From: Ignavibacteriales bacterium
Lineage (GTDB): Bacteria; Bacteroidota; Ignavibacteria; Ignavibacteriales; Melioribacteraceae
Direction: 5' to 3'
NCBI GenBank assembly: GCA_021740915.1
Contig: JAIOYW010000007.1
Span: forward strand, 124,001-188,000
Length of the DNA stretch: 64,000 nucleotides
The notes beneath the pieces were generated by a model. It was not told where the DNA came from. It ran no database searches and saw only the letters and a program-made list of their open reading frames with translations. Position 1 is the first letter of the stretch; every line of letters begins with the position of its first letter. This document shows, piece after piece, positions 54,902-59,852 of this stretch. The translations under genes and the position numbers were made by a program.

Positions 54902-55951
54902 TTAAAATTTTTTCTTATACACTGCAATTGTACCCGGGTTGAGTCCCGTATCAAAAGATCCTGTCTTTTTCCCATTCAGATCAAATTTGATTATTTCACC
55001 ATTCTGAATAAAGTCTTTGGGATTTCCGGCAAGAATTAATTTTTCTACTGGGTCATAGGCTAACGCATAGATAATTCCATATATCGGGTTTACAGTTGAA
55101 GCAGAAATAATAGCTTCTGTTTCTATTGACATATTATCAGGCTCTATTCTGAAAACGCCAAGAGAATTAGTTACCAGCAGGTGACTGTCTGTAAAGCATG
55201 CTTCTCCGGGATTCCCATCTATTAGAACCGAATCGACAGATACAAGAGTCGATGTATTTATTTTATAAACACCTCCTTTTCCGATTCCGTCATAAACTCC
55301 GGTACAGACTGCATAGATGTACCCATCGTTTCTGTTTACAAGGACTCTGGGATTAAATCCTATCTGAATATCACTGATCTTATTTCCATTTAATGTGTCG
55401 AAAACGCTTAAAGTATTCGAGGCGCCAAATCCTGAATTTGCGACAAATATTTTTCCTGCTGACTGTGTTATTCCTTCAGGATAAGCGCCTGTTTCGGCTG
55501 ACCACACGATGCTTTTATTTATAAGATCGAGTTTATGAACTTTGTTGCTAAGCAGACTTGTAACAAAACCTGTTTTCGAAGAGGTTACGACCAGTTCTCT
55601 TGGACTTCCCCCCGGCCCCATATCTATTATGCCTTTGCTCTTATATGTATTCAGATCAACGATTTCAATTTTATTTGAGTTGTCAACAGCGATATAAGCA
55701 GTTGAGCCGAACACATCTAAATCATTTGCGGTATCACCCAGAGGATTGCCGGAATTGGCTCCGGAAAAAACATTGTTTGTTGCCAGACCGGTGTTAACAT
55801 CATAAAAAGTGATTGAGGAATTATTCTGACCATATACACCTTCATTGACAACTATGTAACCAAATTCAGGTATAACGAGTGGAGGAGTTTCCACGGGAGT
55901 CTCACAGGAAACAATGACGAATACGAAAGATAAAAGTATTAATTTTTTCAT
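54902..55951 (-). CDS. BtuG-like lipoprotein beta-propeller (YncE/DUF5074 type)
   Basis: 349 residues. Lipoprotein signal MKKLILLSFVFVIVSC. Seven-bladed propeller repeats of about 40 residues (NDLDVFGSTAYIAVDNSNKIEIVDLNTYK, SPRELVVTSSKTGFVTSLLSNKVHKLDLIN, YPEGITQSAGKIFVANSGFGASNTLSVFDTLNGN, NPRVLVNRNDGYIYAVCTG). Known: in Bacteroides the surface lipoprotein BtuG, a propeller of this class, captures cobalamin for BtuB. Here the gene overlaps the TonB receptor gene by 4 bases and shares its cobalamin riboswitch, so a BtuG role is well supported by context, not by shared residues. Confidence 0.75.
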   Translation of the reverse strand: MKKLILLSFVFVIVSCETPVETPPLVIPEFGYIVVNEGVYGQNNSSITFYDVNTGLATNNVFSGANSGNPLGDTANDLDVFGSTAYIAVDNSNKIEIVDLNTYKSKGIIDMGPGGSPRELVVTSSKTGFVTSLLSNKVHKLDLINKSIVWSAETGAYPEGITQSAGKIFVANSGFGASNTLSVFDTLNGNKISDIQIGFNPRVLVNRNDGYIYAVCTGVYDGIGKGGVYKINTSTLVSVDSVLIDGNPGEACFTDSHLLVTNSLGVFRIEPDNMSIETEAIISASTVNPIYGIIYALAYDPVEKLILAGNPKDFIQNGEIIKFDLNGKKTGSFDTGLNPGTIAVYKKKF

Positions 55952-58086
55952 ATAAGATTCAGATTAAGTGTAAATGAATAATTTCGCAGAGGCATAGGGT
56001 ATGATTGAATCACAAAATACTGTGCGTTTAAAAGATTATAAACAGTCAGGCTTGCTGATGCATTGCTGGAAAGAAGCGGGAAATTTATCCCGGCAGAGAA
56101 ATCTGTAACCAGGTAACCCTTTAGTTTATTATGAGAATCGTTATCTGCCGTATAGTAACGGCTTCCGGCATACATAAGATCGAGAATGGTGAATATACGT
56201 CCGAAAATAAGTTCTGCATTAAGACTTACTTTATGCGAAGGTGTGTAGATGAGCCTTTTATTATAAGCATTGTCATTATCGTTCCCTGTTTTATTAATTG
56301 CATTCAGCCATGTATAATTCGCACCAAGTCTCAGTGTCCCGGGGAAGGGAGATGATGAGGCAGAAACCTCTAATCCATATGAACGCACAGTCCTGATGTT
56401 TCTCGGCACCTGAATAATTGCCCTGAAAGGAGTCCATACAATCAAACCATCACCCAGAATATTGAAATAGCTGATCTCCAGATCATATGATGAAGTCCTA
56501 GCCGAGATACCTGCTTCAAATGTTTTAAACTGTTCACGGGTCAGACCGGTATGGTTAAAAAGACTCGCATAATAAATTTCATTAAAGGTAGGGAATCTGT
56601 TATCGATAGAATAAGTAGTATAAAACCTGAAGGGGGACAAATATCGGGGACTATAACTTAACCCCGCAGAAACACCGTTTACTGATGTTTTTTCCGGGAA
56701 ATCAGCATATTCAGTCTCAAAAATTAGTCCGGCATTTATGCCGCCATCAGTCTCTTTTTCGAAAATGTGCTCAAAAACGGCATTTATAAAAAAACCTCCC
56801 GATAATCTGTCAATACTATCACTTCTATAGGCGCTGAATATTTCTCCTGAAGAGTTCAGTTCAGCTTTCGCCAGATTAAGACCGGCACTTAATTTTGTAC
56901 CCTCCAAACCAAATTCGAGTTTATTCTGTATTCTGAGATCTGAAGTTGAGGTCTTTTTCTCTCCGCTGCCTGATATCATTCTTCTGTCGGGATCAGCAAG
57001 AAAAAGTTTACTCCCGGACGCTGAGAATGAGAATGAATTAATAAGCCCGGAATCGAAATAATGATAATTATTAAGGATAAGCATCCGTGTTTCAGAACCG
57101 GAGCGTGTTTTACTCCAATCGTAATTATTTGAAACAACGAAACCCGGGAGACCATTTATTTTATCTGAATATTTAAGATATATTCTCGTGAGATTCGATT
57201 CATATGATTTTCCTGCAGATATTGAAAATTGCTTTTTATTAAGGAAAGCGTTTTCACGTGTGCGGGTCTGACCATCAAAAAAATAAGAATATCGGTTTGG
57301 GGAATTGACATTCTCAGCATTTATCTCAAGGAAATAGCTCCCCATGTTTTTCCTCAGAGAGAGAGCACTCGAAAAAAGCTGGTCTGAATCAGCTTTCAGG
57401 CTTATTCTGGTATGTGATGGAGTATCCCAGAGTCCGGATGTCATTTTTATCCTGCCCCCTGCTCCGGCAAAACCATCCTCAGGGCTGATCCCGTGCTGCA
57501 TTTCAAGAATATCAATCATATTTGCCGAATGGTCAGAAAGATCGGCTAATCCGGTAGCGGCATCATTTATATTAATCTCATTAAAAAGTACTTCAGTGTT
57601 TTCGCTGCTAAGTCCCCTGAATGAAATTGTTTTTAACGAGCCTGAACCGCCGTATTCTTTAATGTATGTCCCGGAGAACCTATTTATCACAGTGGAAATA
57701 TCGCGCGTAACAGATCTGATCTTATCATCAATAAGCACTCTCCCTGAACTTCCGAAAAGATTTCCTGGTTGAACCGCAGTCACTGTGATAAGAGGTATAT
57801 TTAATGATAGCGGCTGCAATCGAACAATATAGATTCCGGCGCTTTTTAAATGAATCTGTCTGGAATGGTAAGATGTGTGGCTGACAATAATATCAGTTGG
57901 GAAAGTTGGAACCTGGAATTCTGCCACCCCTTCTGAATTAGTAAAAAATCTACCCTGCGGGAAAAGAATTTCCGCGTTAACCAGATTGGAACTCGTCGAA
58001 GAATCAATAACGGAAACAGTTATCTGCGCCTGGAGCCCAGAAGCCAGAAAAAATATTAAAACGGCAAATCTCAGAAAATTATTCAT
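55948..58086 (-). CDS. btuB: TonB-dependent receptor, probable corrinoid (BtuB-type) transporter
   Basis: 712 residues. Signal peptide MNNFLRFAVLIFFLASGLQAQ; a carboxypeptidase-regulatory-like domain (20-100); plug domain (about 110-215, TVTAVQPGNLFGSSGRVLIDD, FRGLSSENTEVLFNEI, GISPEDGFAGAGGRIKM); then a 22-stranded barrel ending YSFTLNLNLI. The substrate is assigned from the cobalamin riboswitch just upstream. The start ATG has only GGAAA one base away, and an in-frame stop lies five codons upstream; it overlaps the stop of a 19-codon leader ORF (ATGA), so translation is probably coupled to it. btuCDF were not seen. Confidence 0.88.
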   Translation of the reverse strand: MNNFLRFAVLIFFLASGLQAQITVSVIDSSTSSNLVNAEILFPQGRFFTNSEGVAEFQVPTFPTDIIVSHTSYHSRQIHLKSAGIYIVRLQPLSLNIPLITVTAVQPGNLFGSSGRVLIDDKIRSVTRDISTVINRFSGTYIKEYGGSGSLKTISFRGLSSENTEVLFNEININDAATGLADLSDHSANMIDILEMQHGISPEDGFAGAGGRIKMTSGLWDTPSHTRISLKADSDQLFSSALSLRKNMGSYFLEINAENVNSPNRYSYFFDGQTRTRENAFLNKKQFSISAGKSYESNLTRIYLKYSDKINGLPGFVVSNNYDWSKTRSGSETRMLILNNYHYFDSGLINSFSFSASGSKLFLADPDRRMISGSGEKKTSTSDLRIQNKLEFGLEGTKLSAGLNLAKAELNSSGEIFSAYRSDSIDRLSGGFFINAVFEHIFEKETDGGINAGLIFETEYADFPEKTSVNGVSAGLSYSPRYLSPFRFYTTYSIDNRFPTFNEIYYASLFNHTGLTREQFKTFEAGISARTSSYDLEISYFNILGDGLIVWTPFRAIIQVPRNIRTVRSYGLEVSASSSPFPGTLRLGANYTWLNAINKTGNDNDNAYNKRLIYTPSHKVSLNAELIFGRIFTILDLMYAGSRYYTADNDSHNKLKGYLVTDFSAGINFPLLSSNASASLTVYNLLNAQYFVIQSYPMPLRNYSFTLNLNLI

Positions 58087-58142
58087 TTTCCGAAAAGATT
58101 ATAGCCGGTAAAGTCGTGTTGTCTGAAAGGGTATAGTGACAT
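58083..58142 (-). CDS. 19-residue leader peptide between cobalamin riboswitch and btuB
   Basis: ATG at 58142, peptide MSLYPFRQHDFTGYNLFGK, stop TGA interlocked with the btuB ATG (ATGA). Its ribosome binding site GGGAGAGG (58150-58157) is exactly 7 bases upstream and sits in the 3' arm of the riboswitch's output hairpin (58148-58166). The peptide is not B12-related by sequence. It looks like a coupling device: when the hairpin opens, ribosomes load here and deliver to btuB, which has no good site of its own. Confidence 0.55.
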   Translation of the reverse strand: MSLYPFRQHDFTGYNLFGK

Positions 58143-58147
58143 TAAAC

Positions 58148-58335
58148 AACCTCTCCCGCGAGGGTTAATAATTCAGAAATTAGCGGCAGGTCTCCTGGCT
58201 TCAGACATCTATATGCGCCTTCCCATCCCCGTGTAAACGGGGCAGTGGCATAAGCATAAGACCATTGGTCTGATACAGTTGCGGGGCAGCTCCGGATTTT
58301 AACCGGATTCCCTATTCTCCCTTTCGGGCACCGTT
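58148..58335 (-). promoter_or_regulatory. cobalamin (B12) riboswitch with ribosome-binding-site hairpin
   Basis: Read on the minus strand, the class hallmarks appear in order: GGTGCC (58332-58327), GGGAATCCGG followed by CCGGAGCTGCCCCGCAACTG, GCCACTG, GGGAAGGCGC, and GCCAGGAGACCTGCC (58199-58185). The output domain is a stem-loop at 58148-58166 (AACCCTC, GCGG loop, GAGAGGTT with one bulged A) that includes the GGGAGAGG site, so B12 binding is expected to block translation initiation. No terminator T-run follows. It controls the leader ORF, btuB and btuG-like genes. Confidence 0.93.
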
Positions 58336-58481
58336 AATTTTATAAAAAGAACTAATGAAAGATAAGGGTTTTAAATCATCTTGAGCAAGAAAAACAAAAT
58401 TCTCATTTTAAATAAAGACCATTAAGGCATTGTGGGATTATAAACGATTAATTAACAACATCCTGGTTTATATATTTCCTT

Positions 58482-59852
58482 TCAATCAAAAAAATAAGAA
58501 TTGATCAGATTAAGTCTTTTATCAGCTTTGAATGACCTGCGGATATCCTGTTTAAGCAGTCTTCCGTCAGAATCGAGGTAGTTAATTATGACATCATACT
58601 CACCTGGAGGCAATTCAGTTTCTGCCGCAAACGAATAAGCCGGAAGCGTTATCCATGACCGGAGATCAGCATTCTCACTGATATCGGAAAGAATATTTGC
58701 AGCCGTCCCGGCAAGAAAACCAAGCAGATCGTTTGAATTTTTCTTTACTGCCTGCCCGATCTTCCCGGCGGCAATCCCTTTTAACACAGATCTGCTGACA
58801 GATTTGAAAAATGTAATGCTTTTTGATGACTCAAAAGTTCTTCGGGCTACATTAGCAATATTCTCCACTAATTCGGCTCTCAGCGTATCAACTCCCGGAA
58901 TTTCAATCTCAATATCATGCACCAGTGTGCCTTCTTCCCTTAGTTCAGGGAATTCGAATTTGAAATTCCAGCCATATCTGGCAAAAGGAAAAAATATCGG
59001 TTCCACCCAGTAACCGGAGGGATCGGAAACAGTCACAAATCCGTCGAATGTCGTAATTCTTGCTCCCACAGGAACCTTACGGGGAGATTGCCCGGCAAAG
59101 ATCAGAAAATTAATTCTGTTCCCGTTGTCAAAAGAAGCATTTTTAATAAAATCCGGAGAAGGAAAATCATAAATATCCGGATAGGTTTTCCTTGCCTGAT
59201 CAAAACTTTCAAGAGATATGCGAGCCTTATCCTGCTCACGGTCGGCCCTGAATATTAGAAAACTAAGATAATTAGCAAGGGCGTTATTGTAGTAATCGAT
59301 ATCCCTCATGATTATAGACGCGTCTGTAGAATCAGCCGAATTCAGAGCATCAATATAATTTTCATTTCGGATATCGAGTTCTTTGAGTTTATCGTTGACG
59401 CTTCTTATCTCGACATAGGCTTCATCAAATTTATTCAGGTTAAGATAATTCAACGCTTTGAAAACACTTATATACAGATTTTCATAAACCTCACCTGAAT
59501 AGTCGAGTGCATTATCATTCAAAAGAAGAGAGGTCGCTCCCTTGGAAATGCTTTTTGTGTATGCATCTTCAATAATCCTTTCAGCAGACTCAAACTCTTC
59601 AAGGCTTTTTTCATAGTCGCCTGCATACTGAAAAACCATTGCTCTTTCAAGTTTCAGAAGAAGTAAATCTTTATCTGCGAAACTCTCAGTGAATTTTTCG
59701 GAATTAACAAGGATTACTGCTTCTTCTTTTTGACCCGCTGCAAGATCATGCAGCAGCGGGTCATAATAATCAGTATTCGTCCGGATTGAGGCACAGCCAG
59801 TCAAAACGGTTATTAAAACAGCGGTAAACGCCGCTTTCTTAATTGAGAACAT
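58482..59852 (-). CDS. COG3014-family lipoprotein with TPR-like repeats
   Basis: 456 residues. Lipobox LTGC at about 17-20, then LHDLAAGQKEEAVILVNSEKF and YAGDYEKSLEEFESAERIIEDAY (TPR-like). The middle and C-terminal parts (NGNRINFLIFAGQSPRKVPVGARITTF, SWITLPAYSFAAETELPPGEYDVIINYL) match the layout of COG3014 proteins, often encoded beside LpoB-like lipoproteins, as here. It is likely an outer-membrane or periplasmic lipoprotein of the cell-wall synthesis machinery. Second gene of the pair, 14 bases after the LpoB-like gene. The riboswitch starts about 150 bases past its 3' end. Confidence 0.72.
   Translation of the reverse strand: MFSIKKAAFTAVLITVLTGCASIRTNTDYYDPLLHDLAAGQKEEAVILVNSEKFTESFADKDLLLLKLERAMVFQYAGDYEKSLEEFESAERIIEDAYTKSISKGATSLLLNDNALDYSGEVYENLYISVFKALNYLNLNKFDEAYVEIRSVNDKLKELDIRNENYIDALNSADSTDASIIMRDIDYYNNALANYLSFLIFRADREQDKARISLESFDQARKTYPDIYDFPSPDFIKNASFDNGNRINFLIFAGQSPRKVPVGARITTFDGFVTVSDPSGYWVEPIFFPFARYGWNFKFEFPELREEGTLVHDIEIEIPGVDTLRAELVENIANVARRTFESSKSITFFKSVSRSVLKGIAAGKIGQAVKKNSNDLLGFLAGTAANILSDISENADLRSWITLPAYSFAAETELPPGEYDVIINYLDSDGRLLKQDIRRSFKADKRLNLINSYFFD

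Follow-up and report, generated by a model that had tools for sequence, protein, structure and literature searches.

Which start codon does a riboswitch control when the Shine-Dalgarno (SD)-like sequence in its output hairpin belongs to an open reading frame (ORF) of only 19 codons? This question is raised by a locus in a 64,000-nucleotide stretch of Ignavibacteriales DNA (the window), in which a cobalamin riboswitch is followed by such a leader and then by a btuB-like gene. An earlier note on this DNA, made from the sequence, had proposed that B12 acts on btuB solely through translational coupling from the leader. The features of the locus are as follows.

58168-58350, minus strand: cobalamin riboswitch aptamer RF00174 (cmscan 107.6 bits, E 5.4e-26, model positions 1-189 of 189)
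58281-58285, minus strand: aptamer CCCGC, presumed L5-L13 kissing partner, from its complementarity to the P13 loop
58148-58166, minus strand: P13 output hairpin, AACCCUC-gcgg-GAG-a-GGUU (-6.7 kcal/mol alone, -8.3 kcal/mol with flanks)
58150-58157, minus strand: SD-like GGGAGAGG in the 3' half of P13, 7 nt upstream of ATG 58142 (from the sequence)
58083-58142, minus strand: 19-codon leader ORF MSLYPFRQHDFTGYNLFGK (conceptual translation), stop TGA at 58085-58083
58083-58086, minus strand: ATGA in which the leader stop overlaps the btuB start (from the sequence)
58069-58095, minus strand: predicted hairpin over the btuB start codon (-10.1 kcal/mol; 5' arm 58095-58085, loop 58084-58080, 3' arm 58079-58069)
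55948-58086, minus strand: btuB-like TonB-dependent receptor, 712 aa (PF07715 Plug, E 2.4e-6)
58127-58098, minus strand: promoter-like TTCAGA-18-TATAAT just upstream of btuB (10 of 12 positions)

The riboswitch output hairpin precedes a leader ORF that overlaps btuB

The covariance model matches both the aptamer core and the B12 box of the window riboswitch, at 107.6 bits against a gathering cut-off of 31.5 bits for RF00174, and this aptamer is its sole match in the 4.35 Mb genome. The aptamer CCCGC (58285-58281), which we take to be the L5 region of the riboswitch family, is complementary to GCGGG of P13 (58159-58155) as read from the sequence, and an L5-L13 kissing contact between CCCGC and the P13 loop is presumed. 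No terminator-like site was found on either strand between 57900 and 58600. The best NCBIfam match of the receptor is TIGR01779 (TonB-B12), with 69.6 bits against a cut-off of 599.7. Thus, btuB is a best-match name, for which the best family match and the riboswitch are the grounds.

The arrangement described in the earlier note was borne out in its parts. The P13 hairpin holds the SD site (58157-58150) 7 nt before an ATG at 58142, which starts the leader and not btuB, and the 19-residue ORF ends in a TGA lying on the btuB ATG (58086). The btuB frame is shut by a stop five codons upstream; because its reading frame differs, the leader is ruled out as an N-terminal extension of BtuB. The btuB gene has almost no ribosome binding site of its own (longest SD match before it, 3 nt). 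Note that a weak SD is ordinary in this genome, since only 104 of 255 first-ATG starts (41%; taken from 432 kb of the genome, window included) have an SD match of at least 4 nt, against 47 of 255 (18%) in the control.

Dinucleotide shuffles of the 62-nt spacer produced the strict layout, an ATG in range together with ATGA, in 0.4% of cases. With any near stop allowed, the proportion rose to 2.2% for an ATG and to 7.6% for any start codon. As the window is one among 107 comparable loci, its layout is not significant alone and, taken by itself, could be accidental.

The btuB start is predicted to be masked whatever the state of P13

The earlier note had overlooked the predicted hairpin over the btuB start codon, which is added by the present analysis. 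The btuB start window (-15 to +22) is the lowest in folding energy of the 255 sampled start windows (median -2.2), and the stability of the hairpin was reached by 7 of 2000 dinucleotide shuffles. In a 120-nt context the opening energy of the btuB start ranks 27th of 255, indicating that the effect of the hairpin is local. The 5' arm coincides with the end of the leader ORF, so that a ribosome terminating at the ATGA would have to open the predicted hairpin.

In the folding model, the btuB start is unpaired to 0.34 whether P13 is left free, opened or forced. This equal masking favours control via the leader and disfavours direct control by P13. Imposing the footprint of a terminating ribosome raises the value to 1.0, which is an imposed condition and no prediction. 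The leader SD is unpaired to 0.25 with P13 free; opening the P13 5' arm lowers this value to 0.18, and forcing P13 raises it to 0.38. Its exposure therefore runs the wrong way round, being highest with P13 forced and lowest with P13 opened. Across these P13 states the model yields no open (ON, B12-free) state exposing the leader SD, because a second helix with ACGACUUU covers it when P13 is opened, and opening the leader start costs 13.6 kcal/mol. This lack of an open state weakens the argument for leader control.

Riboswitches of the family and order mostly carry a second hairpin

RF00174 was detected in 56 of 58 genomes in a sample of relatives and in 73 of 79 genomes of the family, with the window's genome counted in both. 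We compared 111 riboswitch loci, four of which were dropped for want of a recognisable B12 box or P13. In the other 107 a P13-like hairpin was assigned by a pattern, which is misplaced in at least three of them (L097, L061 and L042). At 59 of the 107 loci (e.g. L002, L012, L037), a second hairpin of the form GAAGTTAC...GGAGTAACTTC-ATG (also AAGGAGTAACTTC-ATG) lies over the gene's own SD. Its 5' arm together with the preceding bases (most commonly CCCACGAAG, 25 of 59) is complementary to CTTCGCGGG of P13, with one weak position. From this complementarity, the second hairpin appears to be a sequestor/antisequestor switch that is widespread in the family and order and has the gene as its direct target. 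The hairpin arms are nearly invariant; most changes are one-sided (G-U), and at a single pair 3 of the 59 loci have A-T in place of G-C. In the pairing between P13 and the downstream segment, only 17 of the 59 loci have a standard pair at one position, and 45 have one at another. Given so little covariation, the putative switch rests on conserved complementarity.

The window resembles these loci in its riboswitch, a homologous P13, a TonB-receptor-like target and a start region masked by a hairpin. However, in the relatives it is the gene's own SD that the second hairpin covers, and no leader ORF is needed; both arms of that hairpin (GRAGTTAY...GGAGTAAC) are lacking in the window. A rival explanation is that the leader is fortuitous and that, much as in the relatives, B12 controls the btuB start hairpin directly by alternative pairing. 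One candidate partner, UUUCUGAA (58179-58172, in the interval between aptamer and P13), can pair with UUCGGAAA (58094-58087) to the exclusion of the start hairpin. This explanation is unlikely but deserves serious consideration: besides the 59 loci with P13 and a second hairpin complementary to it, the opening energy of the btuB start (12.1 kcal/mol) is near the median of the relatives (12.3 kcal/mol, n=56), and the candidate pairing amounts to -7.5 kcal/mol. On the other hand, at -7.5 kcal/mol that pairing falls short of the start hairpin (-10.1 kcal/mol), the arms of the relatives are missing, the modelled accessibility of the btuB start is unchanged by P13, and the start hairpin holds no SD to hide.

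Two further variations were noticed among the loci. In L013, L102 and L103, which have the window's receptor type, a stretch before the start could pair either with a complementary segment lying between aptamer and P13 (e.g. GTCAAATTAAT) or nearer the start, which would make a different three-part switch. L050, L031, L044, L045 and L047 have a different P13 (GCTTTCGGG...AAGC). The genes after the first four presumably encode ATP-cone ribonucleotide reductases, judging from their starts, and that after L047 presumably MetE.

The leader is known from the genome of the window only

No second genome of the window's genus was present among those searched, and no close BtuB relative was found in the genome contig set; the nearest BtuB homologues are ~30% identical to the window receptor. 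Among receptors whose gene directly follows a riboswitch, the closest are those of G018, G026, G027, G065, G066 and G078 (~30% identity), to which we added G081, from the genus of G065 and with nearly the same leader region. None of these seven relatives, which have the same receptor type and belong to other genera, has a start codon in range behind P13. On the sequences compared, the leader is known from the window's genome only. In G018, G065 and G081, P13 contains GGGAGAGG without an ATG following, and the SD-like arm is therefore partly just P13.

This recurrence of GGGAGAGG also bears on the possibility that P13 and its SD-like arm are structural only and the leader is noise. In that case btuB would be expressed at a low level and mostly without control, or its mRNA would start at an internal promoter and be nearly leaderless. 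As noted above, weak SDs are widespread in the genome, and the promoter-like site before btuB agrees at 10 of 12 positions. However, the stretch contains three promoter-like sites against 1.4 +/- 1.1 in shuffles, which is near chance (and the group's own promoter type may differ), and an intact aptamer would be left without a target. We therefore regard this possibility as distinctly improbable. That the aptamer acts on transcription, by termination or Rho, and not on translation is hardly credible: untranslated leaders can expose mRNA to Rho, but the region from 57900 to 58600 holds no terminator-like site on either strand. For metE, Rho exposure of this kind is proposed (PMC11260477).

An ATG 4-11 nt behind P13 is present at 28 of the 107 family and order loci, and in only 4 of these 28 does the frame end 25 nt or less from the main start, suggesting that the ATG there is commonly accidental. 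In the window alone does the stop fall on the start codon. The frame ends before the start by 5 nt in G036, 15 nt in L125 and 25 nt in G039, and six frames overrun the start by at least 44 nt. In G049 only 2 nt separate the arm from the ATG, and the stop lies 11 nt past the start. Across the phylum, the P13-SD-ATG pattern gave 28 matches in 27 of 395 genomes, among which only the window has a longer leader joined by ATGA to a long ORF behind a P13 hairpin. Three other matches were rejected as leader cases: L166 has a 2-codon frame with ATGA, which we take to be a second start; in L173 the overlap is -4, with no P13-like hairpin apparent before its 102-codon frame; and L175, whose 27-codon frame ends 5 nt before the gene, also carries a sequestor-like GGAGTAACTTC.

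Four genomes of one genus (L105, L104, L040 and L127) share an 18-codon frame reaching from P13 to the btuB SD, with its stop 13 nt before the ATG. The ATG of this frame is only 2 nt behind GAGG.

Leader ORFs recur behind cobalamin riboswitches of Rhodobacterales

We scanned one genome per species from 84,980 species for a B12 box, a P13-type GGAGAGG and an ATG. Of the 114 loci obtained, 15 have a short ORF that abuts or overlaps a long one. This set includes L198, L207, L269 and L270, which were placed by pattern alone, and L203, L241 and L247, in which the short ORF looks like a real small gene, presumably CbtB. The remaining loci comprise 39 without the B12-box letters, 16 with a long ORF directly, 21 with a short ORF and no long ORF near, 18 with a short ORF and the next ORF 11-60 nt away, and five that run off the end. 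In a different set of 15 loci picked for inspection, all matched RF00174. At nine loci from Alphaproteobacteria (seven Rhodobacterales-like and two from Rhizobiales), the leader runs into a gene for a periplasmic binding protein, whose family was assigned as PF01497 at L254; four more genomes encode the protein at 58-80% identity. At one Atribacteria locus (L225) the leader spans 23 codons and has the ATGA.

Ten Rhizobium-type loci (L192, L194, L217, L232, L233, L238, L243, L248, L249 and L261) have a similar ORF of 26-27 codons after P13, MMVFDV.R.RGPA.F.S..., which ends ~100-130 nt before the next likely gene in the five viewed.

A second sampling of Rhodobacterales was made by the downstream protein and not by the pattern. 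Of 52 loci taken, 15 were not kept, having no riboswitch or main start by our rules (L361, L363 and L366 solely because the P13-arm pattern failed, the B12 box being present), and two were duplicates, leaving 35 distinct riboswitch loci. RF00174 was detected in 15 of the 19 protein-sampled loci scanned; L346-L373 were recognised by B12-box letters, not Rfam. Main starts were set by a motif rule that agrees with the annotated start in 8 of 9 annotated records; the record of the R. capsulatus locus L337 places it 60 nt further in, and the main starts of L351 and L370 are doubtful.

A leader ATG lies 3-11 nt behind the P13 arm in 33 of the 35 loci, and in 26 of these 33 its frame ends no more than 25 nt from the main start, compared with 4 of 28 by the same rule in the family and order of the window. 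Without L303-L307, which are biased because their genomes were first found by the P13-ATG pattern (L306 is from Rhizobiales), the counts are 28 of 30 and 22 of 28. In a non-redundant set of 27, the near stop is found in 21 against 13.5 +/- 2.1 in shuffles, and the leader is open up to the main start in 26 against 18.0 +/- 2.3. Note that the reduction from 33 to 27 removed only sequences of equal length at least 85% identical, and relatedness thus still inflates z. A control in the other frames (near stop in 1 of 33 and 4 of 33) was set aside as biased by ATGA starts and the main frame, and the shuffles were therefore relied on instead.

The leader-bearing Rhodobacterales loci include L337 (Rhodobacter capsulatus SB1003 pRCB133, with a 50-codon leader), L338-L345, L308, L312, L348-L359 and L364. 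Their leaders have 36-52 codons in 26 of 33 cases, with the ATG 6 nt behind P13 in 22 of 33 and a P13 SD that is often GGGGAGG, and they usually overlap the main start (-19, -16, -11, -4, -1). The eight leaders that end at -19 are 50-52 codons long and differ in their peptides, indicating that length changes kept the frame. The leader is absent from the gene lists of nine annotated plasmid records, the gene table being incomplete. The SD of the main gene (often CCGGAGAC) is often predicted to be paired, its partner being an upstream arm within the leader. The RNAalifold consensus was limited to a short stem with weak alignment-wide covariation, and the per-sequence fold z-scores were negative in 19 of 27 and positive in 8 of 27, so the main-start hairpin in Rhodobacterales is suggestive only.

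The Rhodobacterales loci thus resemble the window in having a P13 with an SD, an ATG behind it and a leader that usually overlaps the main start. They differ in phylum, in their target (Peripla_BP_2; PF01497 at L254) and in their leader peptides, and the parallel is inexact because the main genes there mostly have their own SD, whereas the window btuB does not. This set is the stronger evidence that riboswitch-leader-gene relays are selected.

Proposed control of btuB through the leader

We consider B12 control of btuB by translational coupling from the leader to be the best explanation of the locus; it is unproven, and our confidence in it is modest. The direct target of the riboswitch is probably the initiation site of the leader ORF, and the element would be a cobalamin OFF switch aimed at a throw-away leader. 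With B12 bound, the L5-L13 contact would hold P13 and the leader SD would be hidden. When B12 is absent, ribosomes would initiate at ATG 58142, translate the 19 codons and unwind the hairpin masking the btuB start codon. Upon termination at the ATGA, the same or a new ribosome would start btuB. In this scheme we infer all three of the response of P13 to B12, the translation of the leader and the dependence of btuB on it.

Several points argue for this mechanism: the full-length aptamer, an SD in P13 well spaced from the ATG, a layout found in 0.4% of shuffles, the predicted location of the btuB start in the most stable local window with accessibility independent of P13, and the absence from the window of both the relatives' second hairpin and a terminator-like site in 57900-58600. 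By analogy, the reporter-proven precedent of M. tuberculosis ppe2 (PMC11260477) and the parallel in Rhodobacterales point the same way. Against it stand the seven relatives with the same receptor type and no start codon in range behind P13, the folding model (no ON state, 13.6 kcal/mol for opening the leader, rank 27 of 255 for the btuB start), the lack of a second genome of the genus among those searched, and the different plan of 59 of 107 riboswitches in the family and order. The earlier proposal that btuB may be controlled solely through the leader thus stands in part: it gains from a strong predicted start hairpin that is insensitive to P13 and that a leader ribosome would unwind, and loses from the relatives and from the absence in folding of a B12-free exposure of the leader SD.

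The earlier note had taken the layout to be undescribed for cobalamin riboswitches. In the B12 riboswitch of M. tuberculosis ppe2, however, the same layout is reported: according to Kipkorir et al. (2024, PMC11260477), the SD of a short out-of-frame upstream ORF (uPPE2) lies in the L13 hairpin, ppe2 itself lacks an evident SD, and reporter evidence indicates that ppe2 expression depends on translation of this ORF, mainly by termination-reinitiation at AUGA. The window likewise has the SD of an upstream ORF within the L13 hairpin with a start codon just behind, an AUGA overlap and a main gene without a clear SD. It differs in that its aptamer match covers the whole of the RF00174 model, while the ppe2 aptamer is proposed to belong to class IIb as a variant lacking the P8-P12 extension (PMC11260477). 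Further differences from ppe2 are the phylum, the TonB receptor target, a leader of only 19 codons and the predicted hairpin over the main start. The window layout is therefore a variant of the known coupled-uORF kind of B12 riboswitch, and not a new kind.

A review of translational coupling sets out models of RNA unfolding and reinitiation and gives -4 as by far the commonest spacing (PMC12548453). It shares with the window a hairpin at the downstream start that is opened by upstream translation; the word "riboswitch" is absent from its main text (PMC12548453). Among the titles and abstracts of the literature matches listed, there was no other B12 riboswitch with a coupled upstream ORF, and none for Rhodobacterales.

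Tentatively, and with somewhat more doubt than belief, we raise the wider reading of a recurrent, unannotated platform in which the P13 of a B12 riboswitch covers the SD belonging to a disposable leader and translation of the leader opens a second hairpin at the main start. Such a platform would have arisen independently in the lineage of the window, in Rhodobacterales, in one Atribacteria genome and in mycobacteria, with selection on the frame and the stop position and not on the peptide. If this is true, some B12 riboswitches directly target a tiny unannotated ORF and not the adjoining gene, and reporter fusions and automatic target assignment can therefore miss the target. The Rhodobacterales set brings in the genetically tractable Rhodobacter capsulatus for the relay from riboswitch to leader to gene, and suggests that the M. 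tuberculosis case may be no oddity.
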